64,000 bases of DNA from Anaerolineales bacterium (GTDB lineage Bacteria; Chloroflexota; Anaerolineae; Aggregatilineales; UBA2796). Shown piece by piece: positions 29,836 through 47,800 of this stretch. A program made the position numbers and the translations under genes. The DNA lies in contig JABTTZ010000003.1 of the NCBI GenBank assembly GCA_015075625.1, positions 434,001 to 498,000 on the forward strand. Reading direction: 5' to 3'. Every line of letters begins with the position of its first letter. The stretch's first letter is position 1. The notes under the pieces are model-generated. The model was not told where the DNA came from and made no database searches. It saw only the letters and a list, made by a program, of their open reading frames with translations.

Positions 29836-30440
29836 ATGAGACGTTATGAATTAACCGGCGAAGAGTGGGCAAGGATTGAGCCATTGCTGCCGACCCAGAA
29901 ACCGAGAACGGGGCGACCCAACACGGATCATCGGCAAGTGGTGAACGACATCCTGTGGGTGCTCAAGAGTGGGGCGCCATGGCGAGATTTGCCAGAACGC
30001 TATGGGAAAGTGGGGACGGTCAGCAGCAGTTTTTATCGGTGGGTGGGGGCTGGGGTCTGGCAACGAGTGCTGGAGGTACTGCACGCCCAAGCCGATGAGC
30101 AGGGTCGAGTGGATTGGGAATTGCACAGGCACTAGTGGATGCTAGCGGCGTCAAGCGTCGCACTCCCCGTCGTCCGCCTAAACGACCCCAGCGGATCGTA
30201 GCCGATAAAGTCTATAACTCCCGCGCTTTCCGTCAGTTTCTGCGCCGGGGTGGGATTCGTTCAACCCTAATTGCCCAAGCCTGTCGCTGCGGCAATCCAT
30301 ACGGCACACCCTGGACAACCTTTGTGGGAGATCGTGCCAAACAGGGAGCGGGTATTGGGGCTGCCCTTGCTCCACTCGCTGTTTTTGCCCCTCACATCAC
30401 AGCTTCGTTGATGGTGTTGGCACTCGATTTTATGAGGTGA
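29836..30440 (+). pseudogene. IS5-family transposase remnant
   Basis: The first part (29836-30135) matches the N-terminal half of IS5-type transposases: YELTGEEWARIEPLLPTQ, then GRPNTDHRQVVNDILWVLKSGAPWRDLPERYG. Around 30115 the reading frame changes, and the continuation (PRRPPKRPQRIVADKVYNSRAFRQFLRRGGIR) belongs to the C-terminal half. The middle section, which should carry part of the DDE triad, is missing, and the end past 30290 is scrambled. Non-functional. It marks the left edge of the A+T-rich island. I could not define terminal repeats. Confidence 0.8.
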
Positions 30441-30634
30441 GACTGAGGGATACCTCGCTCATCAACGAAAGGACGAAGTTCATACCAGTCAGTCCGTTTT
30501 CGATAGGCGATATTTTGGATCATGAATTCATCACCATTCTGAAGGTCGCCAAAACGGACAGCCTGTCCGACAGGAAAATCAGCACGTGGTTTGTTGGCTG
30601 TCTTAGCTATCACGAAGCTATCTTTACCGCTCAT
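30392..30634 (-). CDS. Small hypothetical protein, C-terminus overlapping the IS remnant
   Basis: 80 residues, start ATG 30634. Phrases such as FPVGQAVRFGDLQNGDEFMIQNIAYRKRT suggest a small beta-barrel. The last ~15 residues are encoded inside the end of the insertion-sequence remnant, so the original C-terminus was probably replaced. Function unknown. Confidence 0.45.
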   Translation of the reverse strand: MSGKDSFVIAKTANKPRADFPVGQAVRFGDLQNGDEFMIQNIAYRKRTDWYELRPFVDERGIPQSHLIKSSANTINEAVM

Positions 30635-30638
30635 CGCA

Positions 30639-30992
30639 TTAATCTATCTCCTCGTATAACAAAAAAGTATAAGCGAAGATTCCAAGCAGCCCGCCCAAAA
30701 CAGCCCACACGATGCCTGCTAAAATCGAGCCGATCTGTTCTGTTAACAAGCCAACTGAAATCAACAAAGCTATGGCACTGAGCCAGTGTGGTACAAATCC
30801 CAACCTGTGCTTTCCCTGTGCAAGGAGAATGAATGTTAATGGCGTGAATTTGGACACGCTCATCAGGGTGGCAGTAAACACCAGAAAACCTGCTGCCAGC
30901 CACCAGTGATCGGAAAGCCAGACGCGCTTTTCAGGCGAAGCAGCGCCTATCCATGCACCAAGCAGCCCACCTGCAAGGGTAAAAATGGACAC
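30639..30992 (-). CDS. Small membrane protein, about four helices
   Basis: 117 residues. Hydrophobic stretches at about 3-20, 29-45, 65-85 and 87-112, with an acidic end (LLYEEID). No recognised motif. Its stop lies 4 bases upstream of the next small gene's start, so the two may be one transcription unit with the truncated methyltransferase gene upstream. Confidence 0.55.
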   Translation of the reverse strand: MSIFTLAGGLLGAWIGAASPEKRVWLSDHWWLAAGFLVFTATLMSVSKFTPLTFILLAQGKHRLGFVPHWLSAIALLISVGLLTEQIGSILAGIVWAVLGGLLGIFAYTFLLYEEID

Positions 30993-31006
30993 GCAACCTG
31001 ACTTGA

Positions 31007-31894
31007 TTAGTGGTACTCGTCAAAGAAGCCGAACAATTTCTCAAAGGCTTCATTCTCGATCTGGATAGCATCGCCGTACAGTTCCTCAATCTGATGTTGA
31101 AGAAACAGCCCGCCATTCAGATACGGCACATCACCGAGCAGGCGGCAAATCGGGGCAGGATGTTCTTTCTTCGCAAATCCTTCAAAGAATAAGGGGCAGA
31201 GGAAGTCACGATAAAAATTGCCGTCTATTTGAGAAAGGCGATTACGGAGGTAATCCACGTCGCCATCCAGAAAGCCCTTTTTCTGCACAAAATAGATGAA
31301 CATCAGGCGGTTGAGCATCACCGACGCATACCAGCGCTGGAAATCCTCATCAGGGATACCTTCAATGAATGCCAGAAACGCATCATGCTGGTGCTTGAAG
31401 CGGTCATAAAATCGCCGGGTCACACGCTCCATATCGAAGGCAACCCGTACACGACTGGTCACATCGACGATAGTGAGGTCTTCTTCTTCATCCAGACTGA
31501 AGGCGATGCCTGCCAGAATTTGCGCGATGTTCTCGCCGGACTGCCCTTTGTAATACTGACGCTCCCGGTTGGCAAGGGGTTTGCCTGTCTCACGCCGCAC
31601 CCACTGCCAGACCTGCTGATTGTTCTGGGTATCACTGTAGATAATGATGTTCTCGCGGTGCGCCTTCGCCACCTGCTGCTCAATCTTGCGGCGCAGCTTG
31701 TATTCAGGGATGTCGGCGATATGCAAGGCGACCATGCCCCGCTTTTCAGCAAAGGCATTCAGCGTCACGCGGCTGCCATCAGCAACGACTTCAAACTGGT
31801 TCCGCTGCTGGTCCCAGCCAAGTTCATCAATGAACAGGTCTTCAAAGCGGAAATCCTGGATGTGTGTACGTATGCGGGTGATGTTGACAGTCAT
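31007..31894 (-). pseudogene. Truncated Eco57I/type IIG-like restriction-modification protein
   Basis: 295 residues, only the N-terminal part of a family normally above 1000 residues. Recognisable family phrases are DLTIVDVTSRVRVAFDMERVTRRFYDRF, YASVMLNRLMFIYFVQKKGF, and LGDVPYLNGGLF followed by AFEKLFGFFDEYH. In intact proteins this last phrase leads into the segment with the DPPY/NPPY adenine-methyltransferase motifs, all absent here. The frame ends at a TAA at the truncation. Its start lies 4 bases after the stop of the GmrSD-like gene, so both were probably one defence operon. Likely non-functional for methylation. Confidence 0.75.
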
Positions 31895-31898
31895 AGGT

Positions 31899-33542
31899 TT
31901 ACAGGTTTCCCCTCAATTCAGCCAGATAAGCGTTCCCCGCTGCTGTTAATTCAACAGCACGCTTTTCAAGCCAAGTTTTATAGTTACTGGCAGAGGTGGT
32001 ACGAATATCATTACTGATGAATTGCTGTTCGAGTTTAGTTGGCGTAATCTTGTAACGTTCAATGTAGTCCATCGGATCCTTATCTCGGATACGAATGTTA
32101 ATGGTCTGTCCGATGGCAGCAATATTGGCAATTGTATCAATATCTTCTTCTTGGAAACCTTCCCGTTCTAATAATTTGACGGGAAAAACATGGTGCCATT
32201 GAGGGCTGAAACTTGCCAATACTTCATTTTTGTCGAAACCAATGCGATCTCCGGCTTCATTCCAATCAGCTGCCTTATTATGGTAAACCAGAAGGTAGAG
32301 CAGGAAACGTCCAAATCGACTCGAACGGTAGCTTTCGTAGAAAAAGTTCGTGTCAAGCTGCTTTTCATGGTCAAACTCACTGAGCAAACCAGCCAAAGCA
32401 ACTTGTACGGTTGTCGCATTACTGATATGTCGCAAATCTTCTTCTAGAGTGGTTGCACTTGATCCGCTGTAACGCCGGAAACGAGATGCTTGTAAGAACC
32501 AGTAAAGCATGGGTTCAAAAGGAGTATCAGGAAACTTATCAATCAATGCCATTAAAACAACCAGGGCGTTTTCGGTTGGCATTAAGCTACTGCTCAAAAT
32601 ACCATATTCTCGAAAACGTTTTATTGCCTTTCCCCATGCTTCTTTGGTTGCTGTCCAAGCATTAGTGATATTCGGCGAACTCCAAAAATCGTCGTTGATT
32701 TCTTTAAAACGAACCTTCTTCGTGCCAATGCCCGTCAATGTGCGGAACAATAAGTTGGGGTCGATATCAAAACCCGCCTCAGCAAGGAGTCTCAGGTAAG
32801 GCAAGAAATTGTCACGTACCCACGTTGGGTTTTTAGCTGCGACAATTCCTAAATAAATATCTGCCTCCGTAACGCGCGTCCCTTTACTGTTCATCCGCGA
32901 GAAAATCTCTACAACATCTTCCAAATCATGGTCAACAGTGATGGTGACTATCTTCTGCTTGCGAATTTCACTTACGCTGGATAAACGAGCATATACATCC
33001 ATTTGATCTTGACCATCACATAAACCATTGGCTTTGATTTCTCGTGCTAAGGTTTTGATAACTTCCTGACCTTGCTTGCTATCTGGATCTACATTGAGCA
33101 ACTCGGATATGGGGATATACCGCCGCTTTTTATCCTTTTTGATAACGGCATTTGCGACAGTAAAATGTGGTGCAGTATCTGTGTCAACGTCAAAACGAAT
33201 ATCATACTTGGCAAGAGTTTCTTTCCAGTTTTCACTCGATTCCCACCAATATGGTTTCCCTCCAAACAAAATACAAAGAGCCGTTGTACGTTGCTGTCCG
33301 TCAACCACCCAAAAGTTATGAGGACGACCATCTACCGCAGTACGTTCCTGAGTGCCATTTGGACTCTGCCAGATCAGAACGCTCCCTACGGGATAACTTA
33401 ACCAGAGCGACTCGATAAGATCACGAACTTGAGGTGCTTTCCATATAAAACCACGTTGAAACTCAGGGACGCTCCAATCGTGATTTACAGCCTTGTCGAT
33501 AATCTGCCAAATCGCAATGTCACCATGAGAATTTGTCGGCAT
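31899..33542 (-). CDS. GmrSD-like DUF262/DUF1524 endonuclease
   Basis: 547 residues from ATG at 33542, with AAGGA seven bases upstream. The N-terminal DUF262 (ParB-like NTPase) domain has VPEFQRGFIWKAPQVRDLIES and the signature VDGQQRTTAL. The C-terminal DUF1524 HNH-type nuclease has QWHHVFPVKLLEREG with the catalytic histidines and IANIAAIGQTINIRIRDKDP with the downstream asparagine. GmrSD/BrxU-type proteins cleave phage DNA carrying modified cytosines, using NTP. Both active sites look intact. Its neighbours are remnants of restriction-modification genes, so this may be the last functional defence gene of the island. Confidence 0.85.
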   Translation of the reverse strand: MPTNSHGDIAIWQIIDKAVNHDWSVPEFQRGFIWKAPQVRDLIESLWLSYPVGSVLIWQSPNGTQERTAVDGRPHNFWVVDGQQRTTALCILFGGKPYWWESSENWKETLAKYDIRFDVDTDTAPHFTVANAVIKKDKKRRYIPISELLNVDPDSKQGQEVIKTLAREIKANGLCDGQDQMDVYARLSSVSEIRKQKIVTITVDHDLEDVVEIFSRMNSKGTRVTEADIYLGIVAAKNPTWVRDNFLPYLRLLAEAGFDIDPNLLFRTLTGIGTKKVRFKEINDDFWSSPNITNAWTATKEAWGKAIKRFREYGILSSSLMPTENALVVLMALIDKFPDTPFEPMLYWFLQASRFRRYSGSSATTLEEDLRHISNATTVQVALAGLLSEFDHEKQLDTNFFYESYRSSRFGRFLLYLLVYHNKAADWNEAGDRIGFDKNEVLASFSPQWHHVFPVKLLEREGFQEEDIDTIANIAAIGQTINIRIRDKDPMDYIERYKITPTKLEQQFISNDIRTTSASNYKTWLEKRAVELTAAGNAYLAELRGNL

Positions 33543-33637
33543 TGGGCAATCCTTACTTGTGTTGTTAAATTTACGCTGTGGCGTAGACGGTCTCTCGCAC
33601 TTATCCAAAATAATGCGTTTCTCAGCTCCATAAGAGT

Positions 33638-34245
33638 TCAGTCGCCAGATAGCCTTAAACTACAAATAATGCGGGGTTCCTGAAACCCTGTTTCGCCGCC
33701 GTGGACAATGCACAGGCGGTCATCTTCGCGCAAGCTCATAACCAGTTCTGCCAGCGTTTCATCACTGATACCAGCTTTCAACTGGCGGTTGAGGGTATCC
33801 ACTGCTGTCTGGCGCAGCGGATAGCGGTAAATCTCATCAACGGCTTTATACAGTCCGCGTGCTTTGCACTCTGCTTCAAACAGTGTCGCTCGCTGCGTTG
33901 CCGCATAATGTTTCAGCCGCTCATAAGTGCGGAAGCGTGCGCCACTGGGTCTCCCAAGTTGCCCACCAACCGGGCTATTGTGCTGACTCTCAATGATCTG
34001 CCGGATACCTGTCTGTACCGCATTATGGTGATAATCAGTACGCGGCAAAGCGGGTGATTCCGGCGCACACCGGGCGGCGTTCAGGATTTCAAACTGCGAC
34101 TCGCTGACAATTTCGCCCTGCGGATTGATCCATGCAAGCATATCATTGCCGTCATTGGTGCGGAGATAGACCAGCACCCCTTCCGGCTCTTTCGGGTTCG
34201 AGATGTGGTAGCGTGTCGAAAAGCTGACGGGAGCCATCTGCGTGA
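33638..34245 (-). pseudogene. C-terminal remnant of a defence-type helicase
   Basis: About 200 residues. Sequence such as GNDMLAWINPQGEIVSESQFE, GGQLGRPSGARFRTYERLKHY, PLRQTAVDTLNRQL and LVMSLREDDRLCIV ... EPRIICS resembles, from memory, the far C-terminus of large SNF2/DEAD helicases encoded beside type IIG-like methyltransferases. Helicase motifs I-VI are missing. Upstream of ~34245 the frame continues only as nonsense over the AraC-like remnant. Probably the helicase partner of the truncated methyltransferase at 31.0 kb. Confidence 0.55.
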
Positions 34246-34784
34246 TGTGCCAGATTGACCAGTGTCTGATGGCGCAACCGCAGTAGTCGCAGGATTTGCC
34301 CAACCGCCTCCATAAACAACTCTTCGGTCTGTTCCGAGTCATGGAGCGTGCCTGCCATCAGCCGCAGCACCTGCGAGAGCGTATCACCCTGTGGCAGAGG
34401 AACAGCATGGAGCAGATGCGTCATGTCAAAGGGGATACCCAGGAAATCAGCCATCTCCGCAATGAACGCCGGACTGAGCATCAGCAGCAAAAGTCGGGCA
34501 TCATCGTCAGCGCGTGGTAAAGGGTCGAGCCTGTATGGTTGATCGGGGGCTGCGTCTGTGAGGAACAGATAATAGCTGCTGTCTATCACCGTATTAGCGC
34601 AGGCAAGGATAGTTTCTCCCAATGGACAAACAATAAACGCATGTCCCAATCGTGGCAGACTCATACGGTGGGGAATATCGCCATACCAGATTGCATTCAG
34701 AGGCGACACCGGAGTATCGACGGCATCTATCGCAGGCAAAGGAGCGGTCAAAATAATCATATCGTGTTCACGGTAAGCATTCAT
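34152..34784 (-). pseudogene. N-terminal remnant of an AraC-like regulator
   Basis: 210 codons. The part to about residue 180 resembles the ligand-sensing N-terminus of AraC-family regulators (AIWYGDIPHRMSLPRLGHAF, LLLLMLSPAFIAEMADFLGIP, EELFMEAVGQILRLLRLRHQ). The DNA-binding helix-turn-helix pair expected next is absent; instead the frame runs over helicase-derived DNA (last ~30 residues) and stops. This is a fusion by deletion of two truncated genes. The AraC assignment is by general pattern only. Confidence 0.45.
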
Positions 34785-34820
34785 GAGTCAGAATCGCCGT
34801 GTTACACGATGCAGTCTGAG

Positions 34821-35828
34821 TTACAGGCGATAGAGATGAATCATACCGGAAATATCACCCACCGCCAGCAGCGCTTTGTCGGGAGACCAGGCGAGCGCCG
34901 CTGGTGTGATTTTGGATAGCCCAGCATGGCGAAACGCTTTTTCATTCGCGTATTCTTCTCCGACTACCATATCGACAATGCCAATGTAGGGTTTGGCTTT
35001 GCCAGTCAGCGTTTTCGTCCATGCCCAGTAAATGACCTGCTGATTATCACCTGACCACATTGGAAGAATCGGTACATCATCGTAGAAGCCCCAGTCCCGA
35101 AAAATTTCTTTGCCTGTTGAGCTTTCATAGATGCTAAAGTTCCGCTTTTCGTCACCGTCGCCGCCGTGATAATAACCGCGCAGCGCGTAGAATTGACCAT
35201 TGGGACTGATGTGTAGCTCCGCTAAAGCCTGAATACCGGGGCGATACAGACACAAACGGTTTCCCGTGAAGACATCCCAAACCTCCACTACGGTGACATT
35301 TTGCGGCAGGACTTTGTCTCTGGAAATCCTGAAAGGATGACGCTTCGGCTTAGGCTCATCCACAATCACGACGGCTGTTTGCCCGTTCGCACTCAACTGA
35401 ACATAGGTGATGACAGGACACGAAACCTTAACCACTTTGTCGCCTAAGAACAATCGATTGCCTTCCGCCCTGATCCCTATCGTAAAATCAGCGTTCCATG
35501 CCGTTAATGGGTTCGCAGGGATGTGCTGTATGCGTGTCTGATGGCGCATGGCAATATCCCACACTGACACGTTTAAGCCTTCAGGTGCCTTAGCACTATC
35601 AATCAACACGAGGGTACTGCTATCGGTACCCCAGCGTAGCTCTGTCACTGTGCCTGTTTCCAGAATCACATCGGGCGCAGCATTTACCCCGGCTTGGTTG
35701 TCGATGAGGGTATAGATCGATACGCAGTTCGTGGGATGGTTGACCGCGAACTGCCCGCCATCAGGACTCCAGCATAGCACCACGAGATGACCGCCAGTTG
35801 TTTTGTCTAGTTTGCTGATGCGTTTCAT
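34821..35828 (-). CDS. Beta-propeller (WD40-like) protein 4
   Basis: 335 residues from ATG at 35828 (an ATG at 35840 is possible). Repeated units of ~40 residues have the form C-W-S-P-D-G-x-x-x-A-V and end in a hydrophobic strand, for example VVLCWSPDGGQFAV, HISPNGQFYAL, PMWSGDNQQVIYWAW and the final ALAWSPDKALLAVGDISGMI. This is a seven-bladed propeller with no catalytic domain and no signal peptide. It is last of four propeller genes in one direction, and more distant from the other three. Confidence 0.7.
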   Translation of the reverse strand: MKRISKLDKTTGGHLVVLCWSPDGGQFAVNHPTNCVSIYTLIDNQAGVNAAPDVILETGTVTELRWGTDSSTLVLIDSAKAPEGLNVSVWDIAMRHQTRIQHIPANPLTAWNADFTIGIRAEGNRLFLGDKVVKVSCPVITYVQLSANGQTAVVIVDEPKPKRHPFRISRDKVLPQNVTVVEVWDVFTGNRLCLYRPGIQALAELHISPNGQFYALRGYYHGGDGDEKRNFSIYESSTGKEIFRDWGFYDDVPILPMWSGDNQQVIYWAWTKTLTGKAKPYIGIVDMVVGEEYANEKAFRHAGLSKITPAALAWSPDKALLAVGDISGMIHLYRL

Positions 35829-35865
35829 AAAGCAATGCATTCCAAAATAAGACGGGAGAGGCTGG

Positions 35866-36765
35866 TCAACTAGTCGATCCCGTCAGCTTGAGCAATCCCT
35901 TGCGGTTGGTTGTGCGCCAGTCATAAAATTCCACCTCTTTGTTTTCCAGAAGCAGCGCAATATGGCGGTTGTCAGGATAGAATTCGGCGGCACAAATATC
36001 GTGTTGTGTAGTCAGGGTAGCTAACAGCAGACTCGCTTGATAGAGTTCCACCCGATTACGGTCAGTGTGGATAGCTACCACAGATGGAAATTCCGCCTCG
36101 TTGACGGCGACAAAACGTCCGGCAATTCGACCATTAGTAAGGTCAAAGACTTGTACTGCCTTACCTGCATATATGTCCCATAAAGTCCGGTGCTGATTCG
36201 TATTTTCCACCAGCAGGATGTGTCCTGACATTTGGAGTACGGGTTGATTGGCTGCGCAGTTGACCGAAAACTCAAAATGCGGTCTGCCACCTAAATGCAG
36301 GCAGTAGCCACGCGCCCATTCTCCCCAGGTGCTATCACCAGCGACAGTTACAGCAACAAAACCACCATCCTGTGATAAACAGGCATTACTGAAGTATGGG
36401 TTTCCACTTGATGTATCAACAAGTTCGGATAGCTGAACGGTGACAACTACTTCACTTTGCAGCACATCAAAGACTTCAATCGAACGGCGTTTCAAACGCA
36501 AACTGCAACGTTGCCCTGGCAGGTAATCGTGGGAAAGAATCGAATCGTTAGAACGGTAGCTTTCTTTGAACAGGTCAAATAGCTGGAATCTGTTGCCAGT
36601 TGATTCCAACAGAAAAGACCTTCCATCTTTTGCCATTCCAATCAGTTTGCCATCATGCTGGTGCAAGAGATAGCGATCTTGCAGACGCCAGAACTGTATC
36701 TGGTGTGCGTTCGCATAAATCAAAGTACTTCCATCTGGTGTGAAGCGAATTATTGGAATTGTCAT
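35866..36765 (-). CDS. Beta-propeller (WD40-like) protein 3
   Basis: 299 residues. Starts IIRFTPDGSTLIYANAHQIQFW, then GKLIGMAKDGRSFLLES, and ends AEFYPDNRHIALLLENKEVEFYDW. The same phrases in the same order occur in the two upstream neighbours (GRLVGIARDGQTFLTYD / GELFGIADDGKTFITRL), showing that these genes arose by tandem duplication. No signal peptide or enzyme domain. Gap to the next gene upstream is 14 bases. Confidence 0.7.
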   Translation of the reverse strand: MTIPIIRFTPDGSTLIYANAHQIQFWRLQDRYLLHQHDGKLIGMAKDGRSFLLESTGNRFQLFDLFKESYRSNDSILSHDYLPGQRCSLRLKRRSIEVFDVLQSEVVVTVQLSELVDTSSGNPYFSNACLSQDGGFVAVTVAGDSTWGEWARGYCLHLGGRPHFEFSVNCAANQPVLQMSGHILLVENTNQHRTLWDIYAGKAVQVFDLTNGRIAGRFVAVNEAEFPSVVAIHTDRNRVELYQASLLLATLTTQHDICAAEFYPDNRHIALLLENKEVEFYDWRTTNRKGLLKLTGSTS

Positions 36766-36779
36766 GGTCTGATTGCGAC

Positions 36780-37652
36780 TTATCTCTCCGGTGCTTGTAA
36801 TTCATCCACCACTGCCAGCGTCTCGATGTCATAAATGCGGATGCTGTGATCCTTCAGCAGAATAGCAATCCGGTTTCCACCGGGGTGAAACGCGCCCGCC
36901 AGTATTTTTTGGGACTCCTCAATTTCGCGCTTCTGCTCATCCTCATAAAAATGCCATGTTTTCCAGCCACAATGCACCAGAACATGCCGCTGCTGCACTG
37001 GGCTGACGGCGATGAACTCGCCAGTACATTGAAATTGACGTATTGGTTTGCCATTGGTCAAGATGAGAGAAGTAGCAGCGGGGGTAGAAACTGCCAGCAG
37101 CGGGTATGGCTCGCAGAACATGACGATTGGTATATAAATGAAGCGATTTACTGGAAAGTCGAACTTCTTCTGAAACTGACCATCCTCACCTCGCTCAAAA
37201 CACATCCCCCATGCGGTATCCTGCCCTCCAACATCCATAATAAAGGCAATCGCCAATAAATGCCCATCGGGTGACAATGACCAGTTATCACAAGCGCCAA
37301 ATTCTAACTGAAGCATGGTATGCATTTTAGGTAACTCAAGCCCAAGTGCATCGCGAAAGGTCAGGGTAAGCCCGTTCGCCTCGATCAGGTAGCGCTGGTT
37401 GGCGGCGTAGCCTGCGGGAGTGAGCGTTGATACAGCAATTTGTGTTCCTGTATCACTCTGCCACGCGCTGAATGATTTACTCTCTTTATCATAGGTGAGA
37501 AAGGTCTGACCATCGCGGGCAATCCCCACTAACCTGCCAGGGCATTCCGCTACAAACTGCTGATTGTGCCAGACGCGAACTGATGTGTATCCACCATGAA
37601 ACAGGAGGCTGCCATCGCCGCTCGAATACAGTGTATTGATTGGTTGCATCAT
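36780..37652 (-). CDS. Beta-propeller (WD40-like) protein 2
   Basis: 290 residues. Starts with TLYSSGDGSLLFHGGYTSVRVW and ends AGAFHPGGNRIAILLKDHSIRIYDI, parallel to its two neighbours. Soluble, with no signal peptide. The middle blades diverge strongly from the paralogues while the first and last are conserved, which suggests that the variable centre binds the partner. Function unknown. Confidence 0.7.
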   Translation of the reverse strand: MMQPINTLYSSGDGSLLFHGGYTSVRVWHNQQFVAECPGRLVGIARDGQTFLTYDKESKSFSAWQSDTGTQIAVSTLTPAGYAANQRYLIEANGLTLTFRDALGLELPKMHTMLQLEFGACDNWSLSPDGHLLAIAFIMDVGGQDTAWGMCFERGEDGQFQKKFDFPVNRFIYIPIVMFCEPYPLLAVSTPAATSLILTNGKPIRQFQCTGEFIAVSPVQQRHVLVHCGWKTWHFYEDEQKREIEESQKILAGAFHPGGNRIAILLKDHSIRIYDIETLAVVDELQAPER

Positions 37653-37672
37653 AGCCTCATAGCCTCCCAGTT

Positions 37673-39337
37673 TTATGGCATATTCTTTGGGGTGTCAAGT
37701 TGCAGTTTGCCTGCCAGTCGCCCTGTTTTCACTTTTCGTATCTCGATGCCACCACTTTTCAACGCGACGGCGAGTCTTTCACCGTTCGGGTGAAATTCGA
37801 TCTCAAGCGCTTGTGATGCCAGCTTGATCCGTCGCACAGCGCTGTCTGGCTGTTCCATATCCCGCAGGCTAATGCTGCTGTCGAAGCGGGTCTCTGCCAG
37901 CAGCATCTCAACAGGGTGAGCGCAAACGACACTGAACCCGGAGGGCAGTTCATGTATTCGTGTTCGGTTGCCAGTGGTGAGGTCATAGATATTCAGGGTT
38001 GACCCATATGGACTCATCAACCAATGATGTTCACGCGAGAAGAAAAGGTATGATGGGAAACCGTCTCTACCGCCGTCAAAATGGTAGGCTTCTTGCCCAT
38101 CGTCCAGCCGCACACAGACACCACCGTTCCAATCGAAACCACCACCGCTCACATAGTAGATAATCGCAAGATGCTGGTTATCAGGAGCGATCAGCCAGTT
38201 TTCCAGAATCGCATCTTCATGGATCGTCGTCTGGAGATCAATCGTTCTTGAAGGTATAACCCCAAAGACATCATCCAACCGAATGAGATGCCGGTAGCGG
38301 TCTGCCATCCCATGAAACCGCTGGTGCAGGGGATAGGTATCCGGTGATATACTGGCAAAGCCCAACGGTTCGCACCGCACAGCATCCCACAGGGTAAATT
38401 GCGGTTCAGGGATTGGGTCTGTCAGAAAAGTTTGTCGCCCTTCGCCCGAACGGGCTGCAATGTCGCGTTTTACCCAATCCTGATCCATAAGGCGGGTGAT
38501 GAAGGTTTTTCCATCGTCGGCGATTCCAAACAACTCACCGTCAGCCACCCCGCGCAGGCGGGCATTCTCGACATCCCACACGAACACCTGCTGCTGAACC
38601 GAATGAAGCAGCGTCGCCCCATCACGACTAAAAGCCAGATTCTTCAACAGCGCGGCGGGACTGGCAAAACGCGGCACATCAGTGGTCTGTCGCATCCTTA
38701 TCCTATCCTTGTCTCGCAATGACACCCAATAATTCGAGGGGTCATGTTCCCTTGAAGCATCACTCCATGTGAAATCACAACGGCTCTTTTGTGCGCCGCC
38801 GACAAGATGTGCCGCAAGGCTGAATACCCGTTTCCGTGCTTCATCTGTAAGCTCTATTTGCGAAATTTCTTCCTCAGGTAGTGAGCGAATAAATACCTGT
38901 TTGCGTTTTACAGACAGAACCAGACAACTCGTCCGCAAAACGACCACCTCACCATCGGCGCGTTTCCAGATCACATCACGGAAATAGTGGATCTTATATT
39001 CTGGCGGCTGGATAAGGGCTGCTTTTCCACGTTGAGTTGCCGCATCCTCACGGTAGTATTCCCAGCTTTTGCCGTGTAATGGTTTATCGCCGCCTTCGAG
39101 TGTTGCTGCAATACGTTCGGCATGTTTTCTGGAGTCTGGCATAACTCCCGCTAAGGGAATTTCCTCCTGTATGCCCATGCTGAGTCGATAAGGGGGATCG
39201 CCGGGCAGGAAGTCACAATGCCAACGGACAATCAGGACATCCCCATTGGCTCGTTTGACCACTGTATCGTAGTAATCATAGTACTTGTCACTCTTATCGA
39301 TGTAATCGAAGGGGTCAATATGCTCATCTTGTGTCAT
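37673..39337 (-). CDS. Two novel N-terminal modules plus beta-propeller (protein 1)
   Basis: 554 residues. The C-terminal ~320 residues (from about 235, LKNLAFSRDGATLLHSVQQQ) form a propeller paralogous to the next two genes. The N-terminal ~190 residues contain the same unnamed module twice. Copy A is about 17-105 (DTVVKRANGDVLIVRW ... EEIPLAG ... AERIAATLEGGD) and copy B about 112-195 (RDVIWKRADGEVVVLRT ... EEEISQIELTDEARKRV ... AAHLVGGA). The module also occurs at the C-terminus of the protein at 40373-41593. I do not recognise it as a named domain. First of the four propeller genes. Confidence 0.7.
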   Translation of the reverse strand: MTQDEHIDPFDYIDKSDKYYDYYDTVVKRANGDVLIVRWHCDFLPGDPPYRLSMGIQEEIPLAGVMPDSRKHAERIAATLEGGDKPLHGKSWEYYREDAATQRGKAALIQPPEYKIHYFRDVIWKRADGEVVVLRTSCLVLSVKRKQVFIRSLPEEEISQIELTDEARKRVFSLAAHLVGGAQKSRCDFTWSDASREHDPSNYWVSLRDKDRIRMRQTTDVPRFASPAALLKNLAFSRDGATLLHSVQQQVFVWDVENARLRGVADGELFGIADDGKTFITRLMDQDWVKRDIAARSGEGRQTFLTDPIPEPQFTLWDAVRCEPLGFASISPDTYPLHQRFHGMADRYRHLIRLDDVFGVIPSRTIDLQTTIHEDAILENWLIAPDNQHLAIIYYVSGGGFDWNGGVCVRLDDGQEAYHFDGGRDGFPSYLFFSREHHWLMSPYGSTLNIYDLTTGNRTRIHELPSGFSVVCAHPVEMLLAETRFDSSISLRDMEQPDSAVRRIKLASQALEIEFHPNGERLAVALKSGGIEIRKVKTGRLAGKLQLDTPKNMP

Positions 39338-39431
39338 GATGTTTTGTCTTTCAGATTACGACCTTCCTCATGTGAGCAATGCAATTCTGGACACCCTTCT
39401 TCATACCGTTCGATACTTCAAGCCTGCCGGA

Positions 39432-40370
39432 CTAAAACCCCAGACGACTTAACGCCGTAGTCCGAAAACCCATCAACGCGCGCAGATATGGAATACCATC
39501 CCCAACAGCATTCATTTCTTCGCGCCAATCCTCAGCATCTACGAGTATGTCCAGGACTCGTGACTCTACGTCTGCACCCTTCAGAAACGCCAACGCAACT
39601 GCCCCTGCCAGTTGGAACAGATGCGGCTGTGCTGAATCGAGTGTGTTTTGAACAATGGTTTCGATCAAATCATGGTCTGGAACGTGTAACAACCCGGCAG
39701 TTAGTGCCGCTGTTGATCGGGTTTCAATAGAAGGATGAGTGGAAAGCAGTCTAATGAGGACGGGTAAGGCATCTCGGTGTATGTCGGGAAACCAGGGGAT
39801 ACTGGATATAGCATATCTTGCCACAGCAGGATCATTGTCCATGCCTAACGTCAGTAGCTCATGAGCATAGTTTGACATTGCGATATAAGCATCGCGTTCC
39901 CAGATAAGAGCCAGCTTATCTAACATCGCAGCATTATCGCCCAATTGTTTATCTTCGGTATCATACATGGTTGCCGTTATGTGGTGGTATTCGGCTGCAA
40001 TCATGCTTTGAACAGGATCAAATCGCCGGGAGGGATAAGGCAGTGTGGAATCATCCAGCCAGTTATCCCCAAGAGTAATGCGAAACATACAGGTCATCAC
40101 TGAACTGCGATCCGGGGTAGAAGTATCTTTCACCAGTTCACACAGGAACGGGACTGCAAAATGACTGGCTTCCCATCGAGTACCCTGGTGGGCAAGGTTG
40201 TTCGTGAGGTCGTAGCACGCCCGTCTGCGAACCTCGTCATCCGGCGAGGTTAATGCACGAATGAGCTCCGGTATATCGGCTGCCGCCCCGTATGCATGGA
40301 AGTAGTGGCTCCAGTTGATGGCATCAAGCTCATCTAACATATGAAATTCCTGATTCACAAGAGCTAACAC
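39432..40370 (-). CDS. HEAT-repeat protein
   Basis: 312 residues of alpha-helical HEAT/Armadillo-type repeats, such as PELIRALTSPDDEVRRRACYDLTN, DPAVARYAISSIPWFPD, ALPVLIRLLSTHPSIETRSTAALTAG and LFQLAGAVALAFLKGAD. No enzyme domain. Proteins of this type are frequent in bacterial immunity-gene arrays and as binding scaffolds. Its ATG (40370) follows two bases after the stop of the 406-residue gene, which indicates an operon with it. An internal ATG at 40340 is a possible start. Confidence 0.7.
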   Translation of the reverse strand: MLALVNQEFHMLDELDAINWSHYFHAYGAAADIPELIRALTSPDDEVRRRACYDLTNNLAHQGTRWEASHFAVPFLCELVKDTSTPDRSSVMTCMFRITLGDNWLDDSTLPYPSRRFDPVQSMIAAEYHHITATMYDTEDKQLGDNAAMLDKLALIWERDAYIAMSNYAHELLTLGMDNDPAVARYAISSIPWFPDIHRDALPVLIRLLSTHPSIETRSTAALTAGLLHVPDHDLIETIVQNTLDSAQPHLFQLAGAVALAFLKGADVESRVLDILVDAEDWREEMNAVGDGIPYLRALMGFRTTALSRLGF

Positions 40371-40372
40371 CT

Positions 40373-41593
40373 CTATGATACAAGTGTCGCTTTCCCATAG
40401 GGGTTTTCTGTTTCATCGCTGTAATACGCATAACTTTTGCCATAAATGAGCGCATCCCCACCGTCCAGCGCTGCGGCGATACGTTCCGTATTTGCTTGCG
40501 ATTCTGGAGTTAACGTAGATAACGGAATTTCTTCTCGTGCTGCGATTGCCAACAGATCGGGCGGTTGACCGGGAAGGAAATCACCGTGATGCCGAATAAT
40601 GCGTAGCTCACCACTGGCGTTCTTTGCTACCAGATCGTAGAAATCAGCATATTTGCTGCTGGTATCAACATATTCCATCGGTTCGATGCACGGCGGTTTT
40701 AGGTTTTCCCCCTCTTTTAACATGCGTTGATAGGCTTCTTCTTGCCTCTGTTGTAGTTGGGGCAAAAAATCCCGAAATTTTTGCATCGTCCAATAGGTTG
40801 CCTGTTCCGCAAATTTCCCACTTTTGTAACTATAGCCATGCCGCACCCCCTTGATTGCCCGATAGGGGAATTCGATTGCATTGAAGGCGTTGAGTCTTTG
40901 AGTGGTCGGGTCAATCCAGAACAATTTACCTTTACGCCACCATCGCTCTAAATCCCAGACTTCAGGCTGATCTTGGACCTGCTCCCAGTACAGACTGGGG
41001 CGTGTATCTGCCCATGTGACATACCGAAGCGGCTGTCCGCCTGTCCATTCCATCAGTCGGCGGTGACGAACTGCGGCAGCGTTCTGAGCATAGTAGGTCA
41101 GCAGATAGAGTGTGTAGGTTGGGACAAATGTTTCCCCATCAATGCGACAAATTGGCAGGCTGTGCAGCACCACCCGTGATTCAAGGTCATCTGGTAGCAA
41201 ACAGGGGGAGATGAAGGGAACTTCGGGTTCTGTGCTTTGTAAGTGACCACCGTACAGCTCACGCTTTCGGGGTTTCATGCGATTTAGATTGAGAAAGCCA
41301 TGTACAGCGGTAAAGTGTTCGCAAGTATGATTCCCATTCGGACTGTAGCGCAATGTGTCGCCGTAAAAACTGAAACGCGACCGAGAATAGAGACTGTAAA
41401 GATCAATCTGCTGGCGATAAGGTTCATCGCAAAATGGACAGATGGATAGGGTATGTTCAGGAATAATGTGCCAATAGTAAACGAAATCGTTGTCCCATTC
41501 ATCCATCTCAGCTTCCACTTTACTTTGATAGCTGCCGGTGTTGGTCATCGCTTTGAATTGGTGATTGACCTGTGCTTGAAACTCTTTTACCAT
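40373..41593 (-). CDS. Unknown 406-residue protein with C-terminal novel module
   Basis: 406 residues. The N-terminal ~300 residues have no family I recognise; notable are one CPFCDEPY knuckle near residue 52 with CEHF downstream, and many aromatic residues (YVTWADTRPSLYWEQVQ, LERWWRKGKLFWIDP). The last ~100 residues (from about 305, EPMEYVDTSSKYADFYD) are the module also found twice at 37673-39337: DFLPGQPPDLLA / EEIPLSTLTPESQANTERIAAALDGGD / YGKSYAYYSDE. The first gene of the propeller/HEAT operon, or second after the GNAT gene. Confidence 0.6.
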   Translation of the reverse strand: MVKEFQAQVNHQFKAMTNTGSYQSKVEAEMDEWDNDFVYYWHIIPEHTLSICPFCDEPYRQQIDLYSLYSRSRFSFYGDTLRYSPNGNHTCEHFTAVHGFLNLNRMKPRKRELYGGHLQSTEPEVPFISPCLLPDDLESRVVLHSLPICRIDGETFVPTYTLYLLTYYAQNAAAVRHRRLMEWTGGQPLRYVTWADTRPSLYWEQVQDQPEVWDLERWWRKGKLFWIDPTTQRLNAFNAIEFPYRAIKGVRHGYSYKSGKFAEQATYWTMQKFRDFLPQLQQRQEEAYQRMLKEGENLKPPCIEPMEYVDTSSKYADFYDLVAKNASGELRIIRHHGDFLPGQPPDLLAIAAREEIPLSTLTPESQANTERIAAALDGGDALIYGKSYAYYSDETENPYGKATLVS

Positions 41594-41619
41594 GCCAAAA
41601 TCCTTAAGTTGGTATACTT

Positions 41620-42570
41620 TTAATAGGACTTTTTGATTACCTCCATGCTTCTGGTATCAATCTCTTTTTCATAGATATATTCATTATCATCAAATTCCAT
41701 GCCGACTTTTTTGAACAGGGATTGGGCTGGTTGATTGTCGTGTCGCGTAATCAGCATAATCCGGTTTGCCCCCTGAGTTCGCAGATGCTCAAAGGCATGC
41801 AGCATGAGGAACTGCGCCAGTTTAAGGTGCTGAAATGGAGGCTGAGTCTCAATGTAGTCAATCCAGCCAGCACGCTGCTGATTCTGTGCCCACTCAGCCC
41901 GACTAAATGAACATTCCAGATAAGCCGCCAACTGTCCATCAGGTGCTTTCACAATGAAATGCTGATATTCCCTGTTATGCAGCAAAGCGCGCTGATGTTC
42001 AATTGTTACTGGCGTGAATCCATATGTGGCTTGATAAGCCTCCAAATCCGCCTCGGTCAGCGGCAGTAGTTGAAAACCGTCGGGGAGATTGGTGGATGTC
42101 GATAGAGTATCAAGTGCCATCGTCATATAAACATTGTAGCCTGCGGTATTGCGGCTGAATCCCTGAGCTTCAAGCAGGTATATGTCATGTTCCATAGTTC
42201 GTTGCAGTAGGAAAACAGAAAGAGACAACTTCGTGGCTTTTTCGAGTGATTCAACCCCTGTACGCCCAATCGCCCAGTCCAACATAGCCGATGGCAATTC
42301 TGTTTCCAGCATATCAGGATGCAAAATCCGTTCCAGGGCATAGTAAGTACCTTCGCGCTGACGCTTCCATAATAAAGCACAGGCTGTTAAGTTGTTTTCG
42401 GTATCTTCCCACAGCCGTATATCCTGTTCGAGATCCCAGACACGGGAATCGAGCAGAAGCTGTAACCGCCAGACTGTAGGATAACGCATTACATTGCCAC
42501 CAGTACGGTAAGCCAGAAGCAATTGTATTATTTTTTCCTGATCACCGGGCATAAACGAGCGTGTTGTCAT
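41620..42570 (-). CDS. GNAT-type acetyltransferase
   Basis: 316 residues from ATG at 42570, with GGAGA eight bases upstream. The C-terminal half is a GNAT domain (DYIETQPPFQHLKLAQFLMLHAFEHLR, then TRHDNQPAQSLFKKVGMEF). The acetyl-CoA loop Q-x-x-G-x-G is replaced by QPPFQHLKLAQ, so cofactor binding is not certain. The N-terminal half looks like a second, decayed GNAT fold, as in double-GNAT proteins. Upstream of the propeller operon in the same direction. Confidence 0.7.
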   Translation of the reverse strand: MTTRSFMPGDQEKIIQLLLAYRTGGNVMRYPTVWRLQLLLDSRVWDLEQDIRLWEDTENNLTACALLWKRQREGTYYALERILHPDMLETELPSAMLDWAIGRTGVESLEKATKLSLSVFLLQRTMEHDIYLLEAQGFSRNTAGYNVYMTMALDTLSTSTNLPDGFQLLPLTEADLEAYQATYGFTPVTIEHQRALLHNREYQHFIVKAPDGQLAAYLECSFSRAEWAQNQQRAGWIDYIETQPPFQHLKLAQFLMLHAFEHLRTQGANRIMLITRHDNQPAQSLFKKVGMEFDDNEYIYEKEIDTRSMEVIKKSY

Positions 42571-42599
42571 AATGACTGTCTCCATAAGTGAGGTGCAAG

Positions 42600-42701
42600 C
42601 TAATGATCTATAGTGTCCCTTCGCTCTAGCCACTTCAATGCTTCTTTACGAATCTCGACATCCCTAGACTGTAGCTCTGCAAGGCGTTGTTCAAACGTCA
42701 C
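42600..42701 (-). CDS. Very small ORF between GNAT and membrane protein genes
   Basis: 33 codons from GTG at 42701, with a good GGAGG five bases upstream. Encodes a charged helix (EQRLAELQSRDVEIRKEALK). It lies 15 bases after the membrane-protein stop and 30 before the GNAT start, so it would fill an operon gap. No homology is known to me; it could equally be a leader or chance. Confidence 0.35.
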   Translation of the reverse strand: MTFEQRLAELQSRDVEIRKEALKWLERRDTIDH

Positions 42702-42716
42702 AGCTTCCTCCAATCA

Positions 42717-43367
42717 TCATGTAACTTCCGGGTGTCGTTTATCCCACCAGTTGAAGCCGATCCGCATGGCAAAAATCAACAGGATTACCAGTAAACCAGA
42801 AAACCGATCACCAAACGCAGTGGAGAAATTGAGAAACACGATGAGCATATTTCCCATATGAAACACCGTATACACGATGCCATAACGGATGATTCCCGAA
42901 CGAGTGAACCGGGTCGCACGCGGGTCAAAAAGCGAGATGAATACCCCAAGTGCAAGCCCATACCCACAGCCGTCCAGTACGCCGAGCGCTGCCCGCCGTG
43001 TTGTGTTGATGACGATTTCATCAGCAGCCATCGGGACAAGCCACCGCAGCATCTCTGCATCGACCACCACATAATAAAATGCTGTGATCACTGCCGTCAG
43101 ATACATGGTGAACAAAATCGTGCGCCAGTCGATGTGCCACTTTTTACGGCTGTCGGTGAACAGATAGGCGGCTGCGGTAACTACTGCAATAATGAAACTG
43201 AACAATCCGCCTAAAATCAGATCGCGTTCGATAGCTGCTGCATCGCCCCCAGCAAGTCCAGTCCGAATTGCGAATCCAAAACAGCCGAGAATCGGCGCAA
43301 GGGGAATAAGCAAGATTACTGTACGCAATCGGTAGCCAAAATGTTCAGTTGTTGTTTTTGCCTGCAA
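42717..43367 (-). CDS. Membrane protein, about six helices
   Basis: 216 residues with hydrophobic segments near 15-35, 50-70, 82-102, 125-145, 160-180 and 188-205. A CGYGLALGVFIS stretch and a GNMLIVFLNFS stretch have no named family. Likely first gene of the minus-strand run reaching the propeller genes. Function unknown. Confidence 0.6.
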   Translation of the reverse strand: MQAKTTTEHFGYRLRTVILLIPLAPILGCFGFAIRTGLAGGDAAAIERDLILGGLFSFIIAVVTAAAYLFTDSRKKWHIDWRTILFTMYLTAVITAFYYVVVDAEMLRWLVPMAADEIVINTTRRAALGVLDGCGYGLALGVFISLFDPRATRFTRSGIIRYGIVYTVFHMGNMLIVFLNFSTAFGDRFSGLLVILLIFAMRIGFNWWDKRHPEVT

Positions 43368-43568
43368 ACAGACAGACTCCGGGATTGAGTTTGCTCTCCA
43401 TCTATTTTATGACGAAATGAGTATCAAAGACTTGCGAAAAACTGCTAAAACCGTAAGCCATCAATGTGTATCAAAGTCTGTTAAGAAGATGTATTTTGAG
43501 CAGGCTGGTGTCGGATAACTGACCAGACTCGATACAATATTGTTGAAGTATAAAAGAGTGCAGACAGC

Positions 43569-43778
43569 ATGACATCACCAAATATCCATACACCACTTAC
43601 AACGAACGAAAAACAACTGGTTGATGTTCTACTGCCCCATATGACGAATCGCCAAACCCGTAGAACACTGGTCGAAAGGGCATTGTTTCGCTGTCTTGTA
43701 TCGTTGCAACACATGACTTGGAACGGTAATCCCTACAACGTTACAGTTCGTCTAATTCGTCTACGCGTATATCTTTAG
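43569..43778 (+). pseudogene. Remnant resembling an effector-associated (death-like) domain
   Basis: 69 codons. TTNEKQLVDVLLPHMTNRQTRRTLVERAL followed by WNGNPYNVTVRLIRL resembles the small helical EAD-type adaptor modules seen at the N-terminus of bacterial conflict proteins. It breaks off at about 43757, where DNA of the opposite-strand restriction gene begins. No downstream partner domain remains. The identification is by pattern only. Confidence 0.4.
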
Positions 43779-44881: not shown

Positions 44882-47800
44882 ATGATCAGCCCACACCTAT
44901 CCACAACACCCCTCGCCACCTTTGGCAACCGCTACCGCATTGGCGATACGCTTGGCATTGGCGGGATGGGCGCAGTCTACCGCGCCATAGACCGCCTCAC
45001 CGGACGCAGCGTGGCGATCAAGCGTGTTCTTATGGCGACAGAGCGCTTGCAATTCTCCCAGTCTACCGGCGCACGTGATCTGCGGCTTGCCCTCACCCAA
45101 GAATTCCGCACCCTTGCCAGCCTTCGCCACCCGCACATCATCAATGTTATTGACTACGGCTTTGACTCCGGCGGGCTGCCCTTCTATACGATGGAGTTGG
45201 TGGAAGGCGCACAGAACATCCTTCACTATGGGTTGGAAAAACTCCTTGAGCGCCGCTTGGAACTGCTTGCCCAAGTCCTCTTGGCGTTGGCATACCTTCA
45301 CCGGCGGGGGATCATCCACCGCGATATAAAGCCCGACAACATCCTCATCGATCAGGATGAGGTTAAGGTGCTGGATTTCGGCTTAGCCATTGCCCGCACC
45401 GATCTCCCTCTCGAATCCGAGACGGTGGGGACGCTTGCCTACATTGCCCCCGAAATGCTCAGCGGCAAACCAGCGATAGAGGCAAGCGATCTCTATTCCG
45501 TTGGCATGATCGCCTATGAACTGCTCAGCGGGCGCTATCCCTTTGACAAAGAAGAATTCGCCAAACTCACCGTCGCTGTCCTCCACGAAACACCCTCTTG
45601 GGAAGGTATTCCCCCTCACCTTCAACCCCTTTTGGCAACGCTTCTCCAAAAAGACCCCGCCAAGCGCTATCAAGATGCCTATGCCGTGTTGGATGAATTA
45701 CAGCGGATCGCCGGCGTGACCATCCCCCGCGAAAATGCCGTGATCCGCGAGAGCTTTCTTCAGGCAGCCGCCTTTGTGGGGCGCGAAAAAGAAATGACTA
45801 CCCTCATCGCCGCACTCCACCGTGCCAAAGAAGGCAAAGGAAGTGCGTGGCTGCTCGGAGGGGAATCCGGCGTGGGCAAAACACGTCTTCTTGATGAACT
45901 GCGTATTCGGGCATTGGTCGAGGGGGCGCTTGTTGTTCGCGGCAACGCCATTCCCGAATCAGCGGTGAGCGATGTGCTTTGGCGAGAGCCAATCCGCCGC
46001 CTTGTGCTGAACATCGAACTCACCCCCAGCCATGCGGCGGTCTTACAAACCCTCATCCCCGATCTGCAAACCCTGACCGAGGTCACCCCAACGGAGACGA
46101 TCCCCGAAGGGATGGAGCGCCGCGAACGCTTGAAATCGGCTGTCTTTGAAGTCTTTCGCGCCCAGCCACACCCCCTTGTTCTCATCTTGGAAGACCTTCA
46201 ATGGGCGGGCAACCTTGATCTCTTAAAAACGCTCCTCGAACAGGTCACCGCCCATCCCTGGCTCATTGTGGCGAACTTCCGCGACGATGAAGTCCCCTCT
46301 CTCCCCGCCAAACTCCCCGAAATGACTTTTATGAAGGTACTGCGTCTCGATAAACAGGCAATCACCGCGCTCAGCGTCAGTATGCTTGGCACAGCCGGTG
46401 ACGCCCCACCCGTCATTGATCTGCTTGAGCGGGAGACAGAGGGCAATGTGTTTTTCATTGTCGAGGTCGTTCGCGCCCTTGCCGAACGCGCCGGACAGCT
46501 GAGCGATATTGCCAATCAGACTCTTCCCCGTCAAGTCTTTTCGGGGGGCATTCAGACCGTCGTCCGGCGGCGTTTGGAGCGTGTCCCCGTTTGGGCAAAA
46601 ACCCTACTGGAATTGGCGGCGGTGCGTGGGCGCATAGTGGATGTTCCCCTCATGGAATGGATCGTCCGCCAGACGCTCAACATGCCCACTGTCTCCGCGT
46701 GGCTGATGGCATGTACGGGCGCCTCGGTGATGGTCATCCGCGAGGAACAGTAGGGCTTCAGCCACGACAAAATCCGTGAGGCGATCCTTGCCGATCTCCC
46801 ATCAGAGCGCCGCCGCACCCACCATACCGACATTGGGCGGGCATTGGAAAGCGTCCATAATGCCTCCCCCTATTTTGCCACCATTGCCTACCACTATCGC
46901 ATGGCGGGCGAGGGGCGGCGCGAACTAGATTACCTGATTCCAGCGGCACGGGCGGTAAACGCCAGCAACGACCCGACAGAGGTGAAAAAGATTGCAGATC
47001 GCGCCTTTGCCCTGTTAGAAACCCTCCAGATCGTCCTCCCTCCGGCAGAGATGAATGATCTCTATGATATGGCGGGGTGGTCGGCGCTTTACCTCGGTGA
47101 TGCCGCGAAAGCTGATCAGTATTTCCAAGCGCAGTTCAACAAGGCAGAGGCGATTCATCACCCCTATTTCAAAGCCGATGCGCTTGGCAACCTCTCCTCC
47201 GTCGCTTGGCAGATTGGCGATTACGCCGCCTCGCTCGATTACGCCACCCAAGCCCTTGATCTTTACATCACCCTCCGCGATCCATTCGGTATGGCGCAGG
47301 CACGCAACAAGATCGGTGCGCTGCAGCGCCTTCTTGGTGATTTGAACGGCGCTTACGAGAGCGGCATCGAGGCGCTTGCCCTCTACCAATCGATTGACAA
47401 CACCTTTGGCATGTCCGAGGCGTACCACAACCTCGGCTTGGTTGCCCAACTCCAAGGCGATTTCACGGCGGCGCTCCAGCATTTCACGGCGACGCTCACC
47501 CTCCAACGGAGCGGCGGCAACACCATGAACCTGAAATACACCCTTAACGCGCTAGGGATCATCAGCGCCACCGTCGGAAACTACGCGCAGGCAGAGACGT
47601 ACCTTCTGGAAAGCCTTGCCCTATCGCGGCGGGCAAATGTCCAGCGCCAAATGAGCAACACGCTTTGCAACTTGGGCAATATCACCCTCCGGCAAGGCAA
47701 CATCCCACAGGCATTCGCCTATCTGAAGGAGGCGGTGGGGATTGCCGAGACAATTGCCAACAATCGCATCATCTCATGGGGGAAAGAACGCCTCAGCGTG

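Follow-up and report, generated by a model that had tools for sequence, protein, structure and literature searches.

A six-gene array of zinc-site, HEAT-repeat and beta-propeller proteins in a Chloroflexota genome: a candidate orphan immunity locus

What is the function of six tightly packed genes that seem to encode little else than binding domains? Such an array is found in the window, i.e., the whole stretch of 64,000 nucleotides from an Anaerolineales bacterium analyzed here. A sequence-only reading had described its products as binding scaffolds only and had suspected an immunity or conflict locus. The six genes were re-derived at the coordinates given by this reading, all on the minus strand, yet the description as scaffolds only overlooks a zinc-site domain, which accounts for the larger part of the 406-aa protein. 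This domain provides the link to toxins on which our interpretation is built. The array is organized as follows:

30640..43750, no strand assigned: low-GC island containing the array, the lowest-GC 13-kb stretch of the window
41620..42633, minus strand: 337-aa GNAT acetyltransferase, 26 bp upstream of the array and on the same strand
34821-41593, all minus strand: six-gene array, of which the 406-aa gene (40373-41593) is transcribed first
40373..41593, minus strand: 406-aa protein with the zinc-site domain (~40-262), a linker helix and module M (~303-406), predicted orphan immunity protein
40808..41476, minus strand: zinc-site domain (residues 40-262 of the 406-aa protein), homologue of proteins encoded behind Rhs-TX cartridges
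40373..40687, minus strand: module M copy 3 (residues ~303-406 of the 406-aa protein)
39432..40370, minus strand: 312-aa HEAT-repeat protein with a GTG start
37673..39337, minus strand: 554-aa protein with M copy 1 (~7-110), M copy 2 (~111-205) and a beta-propeller (~231-546)
36780..37652, minus strand: 290-aa beta-propeller, paralogue of the 37673 propeller
35866..36765, minus strand: 299-aa beta-propeller, paralogue of the 36780 and 37673 propellers
34821..35840, minus strand: 339-aa WD40-type propeller without detectable paralogy to the other three

The array and its island

Each of the six genes is a long and intact open frame. The gaps between them measure 2, 94, 20, 14 and 25 bp (from 41593 to 34821), and the GNAT gene is possibly part of the same transcript. 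Promoter and terminator scans of the region did not rise above shuffled sequences. Family profile searches recognized no toxin family among the six genes. The surrounding island has a GC content of 48.9% compared to 56.6% in the remainder of the window; among stretches of 13 kb, the one with the lowest GC starts at 30600. No tRNA, Rfam family or common repeat was found marking the ends of the island. The host genome is a 4.68-Mb assembly that is 98% complete and belongs to the class Anaerolineae (Chloroflexota), from which the class genomes referred to below are drawn.

The island holds several further genes and gene fragments. Judged by profile matches, a defence gene adjoins a truncated type IIG gene: a GmrSD-like gene (31899-33608, minus strand; GmrSD_N 6.7e-29, PADLOC HEC-05 4e-32) is followed by a 295-aa gene (31007-31894, minus strand) that matches the first 304 of the 1100 positions of a type IIG restriction-methylation enzyme. 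Two overlapping frames (33638-34784, minus strand) that come immediately after the propellers have no clear family match and look like pieces of joined genes. What appears by eye to be an IS5-type transposase fragment (29836-30440, plus strand) lies at the left end of the island, and its frame at 30114-30440 has no Pfam match. A 69-aa frame (43569-43778, plus strand) stands alone at the low-GC island edge and matches the effector-associated domain (EAD) EAD8 at E 1.1e-5, scoring 26.5 bits where the cut-off is 27.

The zinc-site domain and its link to Rhs toxins

The zinc-site domain comprises residues ~40-262 of the 406-aa protein and is featured by an invariant CPxC...CxH signature. C52, C55, C91 and H93 (numbering of the 406-aa protein) as well as P45 and P53 show no variation across an alignment of 20 sequences, and the pattern of these three cysteines and one histidine is as expected for a zinc site. 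Searches of Pfam, NCBIfam, PHROGs and the PDB with the domain returned no match. It occurs at about 20 loci, all of them in Chloroflexota where named: it is present in 14 of the 396 class genomes (own genome included), at 17 loci in GTDB contigs, several of which are the same places as the class-genome matches, and in two of the 400 genomes of a phylum sample. Viral contigs contained none, and a search of plasmids with the 406-aa and 554-aa proteins gave no match. The domain alone, modeled for the member at locus L044, has a confident core (mean pLDDT 80, pTM 0.80); against the PDB this model found no Foldseek chain at E<=0.001 and a best VIA Z of 2.7 over 67 residues, which is no proof of a new fold.

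At four loci (L046, L047, L049 and L052) the zinc-domain gene lies behind a Rhs-type cartridge, and these cartridges have a previously undescribed C-terminal domain in common, here called TX, in which R, DLD and HG motifs are conserved:

L049:8372-9046: TX
L047:265-780: TX
L046:361-924: TX
L052:3263-3772: TX

The TX profile scores 181-262 bits in the four loci, which are also the four from which it was built, and the aligned sequences share 31-54% identity with the first one. No Pfam family exceeded its cut-off with TX (one match at E 0.005), the PDB gave no match, and neither viral contigs nor plasmids contained the domain. The order of its conserved motifs (DxD, then H) is reminiscent of nucleotidyl-cyclase toxins, a lead without support.

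The cartridge of L047, which is related to other Rhs C-terminal cartridges, is separated by 41 bp from the zinc gene, and that of L046, cut by the contig end, overlaps it. L049 encodes a Rhs protein of 3122 aa that contains 39 Rhs-repeat stretches and a Hint domain, and in which Rhs-Hint-TX is followed by a further C-terminal domain; behind it come a 132-aa gene and then the zinc gene. Similarly, a PT-TG-TX-DUF3990 cartridge in L052 is followed by a 94-aa gene and the zinc gene. Counted from the toxin gene, the zinc gene is thus first in L046 and L047 and second in L049 and L052. A single toxin domain is paired with a single downstream gene in the former two loci and two go with two in the latter, a one-to-one matching that cognate immunity would give. 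A reverse search with TX in 390 class genomes matched two genomes, both with the zinc gene adjacent, a test of n = 2 for a domain that was first noticed because it stands beside the zinc gene. Based on its location at the end of Rhs cartridges, we infer that TX is toxic. The four TX-adjacent loci and the reverse search, in which both genomes carried the zinc gene, make it probable that TX and the zinc-site domain are a new toxin/immunity pair. We consider it likely that the domain is the immunity partner of TX, and an immunity role of the domain is well supported. The association with defence or toxin genes for which the sequence-only reading had advised to look is seen in these homologues behind Rhs cartridges and in the GmrSD-like gene, type IIG N-terminus and EAD8 fragment of the island.

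Two looser cases exist: a Rhs gene lies 8 bp upstream of the zinc gene in L059, and a DddA-like Rhs cartridge directly downstream of it in L044. The toxin domain of L059 has TX-like features, but reached E 0.034 in a pairwise hhalign comparison and was left uncounted. In L052 an FGE-sulfatase-like gene (1763-2665) sits between two Rhs-type toxin cartridges.

About two thirds of the zinc-domain loci have no recognized toxin adjoining. In the family tree, the window copy falls within the half holding all four TX-linked members (97/99 support), on a long branch of its own, and a second subfamily of eight tree rows (97/99 support) includes part of the loci without a recognized toxin. A member of this second subfamily (L053:8969-10789) has the domain fused to N-terminal HEAT repeats, and at L054:1-1683 the domain is apparently flanked, as seen by eye, by a HEAT-like N-terminus and a pentapeptide-like C-terminus. 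The zinc-domain gene lies behind ABC-transporter genes in L050 and L051. A frame joining an ABC-transporter ATPase and a histidine kinase (HisKA_3, HATPase_c; L051:8354-9976) is located 24 bp upstream of the zinc-domain gene, with relatives in L025 and L050. At L048:9520-15538 the zinc-domain gene lies amid genes with CxxC zinc-ribbon-like motifs, of which two are mutual paralogues and none has a clear family.

Module M, the HEAT protein and the propellers

Module M is a stretch of ~100 residues with two copies in the 554-aa protein and one at the end of the 406-aa protein, as the sequence-only reading had proposed. Local alignments of M1-M3, M1-M2 and M2-M3 reach z = 57, 10 and 7.8, respectively, and none of the 500 shuffles reached the score in any of these pairs. 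The phrases K-x-A-x-G, R, EEI and A-A-x-L-x-G-G are kept across the copies, much as described before. A whole-genome profile search found exactly these three copies in the own genome. No M was found in the other class genomes (396 searched with the full 554-aa protein as query), in the proteins of the gathered neighbourhoods or in viral contigs. A match to a well-described housekeeping domain had been named as one of two results that would speak against the sequence-only reading; M, of which only three sequences exist, matched nothing in Pfam (E<=1), NCBIfam, PHROGs or the PDB, nor any of the EAD models in Pfam. M is unrelated to the extension found at the C-terminus of the zinc proteins of L025 and L051 (hhalign E 0.34). 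The model of the complete 406-aa protein is poor outside the zinc domain, M included (mean pLDDT 66.5), and its structural matches are accordingly meaningless. An immunity role of M can only be surmised.

The 312-aa protein scores above the cut-off with HEAT_2 (1.7e-11), HEAT_EZ and HEAT. A broader HEAT family, to which its first ~100 residues belong, is present in 10 of the 396 class genomes (own genome included) and, beyond Chloroflexota, on Streptomyces plasmids and in Bernardetia. The genomic contexts of the relatives are mixed. HEAT is listed among the immunity types (Zhang et al., 2012; PMC3482391), so that an immunity role of this protein is plausible by analogy. Similar to Imm-HEAT, a HEAT-repeat solenoid here sits in a toxin-free, immunity-like operon. 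Imm-HEAT, however, is located by a polymorphic toxin, e.g., Tox-REase-7 or Ntox34 (PMC3482391), whereas a scan for Rhs repeats found none near the relatives of the array protein (L083-L090).

The C-terminal propeller of the 37673 gene and those of the 36780 and 35866 genes are paralogues (z 14-33), in agreement with the duplicates reported before. Conserved first and last blades with divergent middles had also been claimed, which is weakly true: identity is 28-35% in the first fifth and 12-34% in the others, the last included. The fourth propeller (34821) has no detectable kinship with these three beyond general WD40 similarity (z 0.8-2.8) and matches ANAPC4_WD40 with 24.8 bits (cut-off 22.9); the other three stay below cut-off, yet score in several propeller models. 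A full-length propeller relative occurs in another class genome (L096:8641-9570; E 1e-13) and a fragment in L095, both solitary and without adjoining toxins. A search of plasmids with a propeller gave no match. On the opposite strand, the L096 gene adjoins what by eye resembles an ADP-ribosylglycohydrolase gene. We suggest an immunity role of the propellers only tentatively. A structural precedent is provided by Tsi1, the immunity protein of Tse1, in which a partial beta-propeller acts as toxin inhibitor (PMC3391265). Tsi1 is a periplasmic, fragmented propeller and the window proteins have WD40-like repeats; the likeness considered here is one of fold type.

An orphan immunity array and its alternatives

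Polyimmunity loci are tandem immunity genes in one orientation with short gaps and no toxins in between (Zhang et al., 2012; PMC3482391). Both layout features return in the array, with its tandem same-strand genes, gaps of 2-94 bp and lack of interrupting toxin genes. Its multi-domain proteins with repeated modules resemble those of the described loci as well, in which the repeated modules are immunity modules (PMC3482391). In contrast to described polyimmunity loci, no SUKH, SuFu or Imm family is recognized, and a new zinc-site family, HEAT repeats and propellers take their place. The own genome contains neither a Rhs repeat nor TX, which makes the window copy of the zinc domain an orphan. 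The sole PT-HINT match in this genome is not a toxin but an intein in SufB; the SufB gene (C1 near 1395906, L097) apparently contains two inteins.

We therefore favour, at about even chances, the view that an acquired island carries here an orphan, polyimmunity-like locus. The zinc domain would bind TX in the cytoplasm and thereby block it, and the window copy would guard against TX-type toxins from neighbours. More tentatively, the HEAT and propeller proteins may be additional binders of other toxins that arose by tandem duplication and divergence, and M may be a small binding module copied between two operon genes, yielding multi-domain, polyimmunity-style proteins. Counting against orphan immunity, a toxin association is found for one of the six array genes, the one with the zinc domain. 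The earlier suspicion of an immunity or conflict locus is supported by the zinc-site domain, whose homologues follow Rhs toxin cartridges, and not by M. The six-gene set, for which a search in other genomes had been recommended, is missing from every other class genome in a sample that includes no close strain; as far as searched, it is unique to the present genome, the other result that the sequence-only reading had named as speaking against it. Consequently, the array as a whole is without comparative support, while some of its parts have it.

A possible, if less favoured, alternative is that the products of the operon assemble into a single multi-subunit complex, serving a conflict system as scaffold or sensor. 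In this model M would be a homotypic assembly tag linking the zinc protein with the M-M-propeller protein, the body would be made of the HEAT and propeller proteins and the GmrSD-like nuclease would be the effector. HEAT repeats and propellers are indeed found in EAD conflict systems (Kaur et al., 2020; PMC7159879), and NTP-dependent conflict systems typically combine homotypic EADs with scaffolds of propellers, HEAT and pentapeptide repeats (PMC7159879). Small shared modules are a further likeness (PMC7159879). In line with this, M is common to two genes of one operon and found nowhere else, an EAD8 fragment lies next to the array at the island edge, and the GmrSD-like gene and type IIG N-terminus follow downstream on the same strand. 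However, the operon lacks the NTPase core and effector of EAD systems and M has no EAD match in Pfam; in the island as a whole there is no NTPase, vWA, GTPase or protease core, a kinase-AAA gene at 44882 being outside it and on the other strand. Moreover, in other places the zinc-domain family is found together with Rhs cartridges, in no case with M, and the gene set lacks the conservation expected of a complex.

It is unlikely that the array arose as a by-product of the decay of an island, formerly part of a toxin/immunity or defence region, and that its propeller and M duplications play no part in defence today. The neighbouring fragments (the 295-aa type IIG N-terminus, the overlapping frames at 33638-34784, the 69-aa EAD8 frame and the apparent transposase fragment at ~29836-30440) and a gene set unique to the own genome fit such decay, but the six intact long frames with tight spacing and the conserved zinc ligands of the window copy argue for selection. 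Ordinary physiology, with the proteins as signalling or trafficking scaffolds and an incidental toxin link of the zinc domain, is the least probable: WD40 and HEAT proteins are common and several zinc-domain relatives lie by transporters or other genes without recognized toxins, but the sporadic spread (14 of 396 class genomes, two of 400 in the phylum sample), the low-GC island and the four TX-adjacent loci point to an accessory conflict role.

If the orphan immunity reading is true, toxin-free immunity arrays reach a phylum from which no extended ones were reported, as these were known only from proteobacteria, bacteroidetes, firmicutes and actinobacteria (PMC3482391). A more far-reaching extension, which we regard as a long shot, holds that M and the WD40-type propellers constitute a new class of interbacterial immunity in Chloroflexota, with M exchangeable between zinc-domain and propeller antidotes and one operon making a family of toxin binders by tandem propeller duplication. 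The locus raises the question whether a complete WD40-type propeller can act as an immunity protein, given that no propellers were found among those of the 2012 survey (PMC3482391) and that Tsi1 is partial and propeller-like. TX and the zinc-site domain, neither of which has a Pfam family, would represent an undescribed toxin/immunity pair of Chloroflexota that is testable with two genes.
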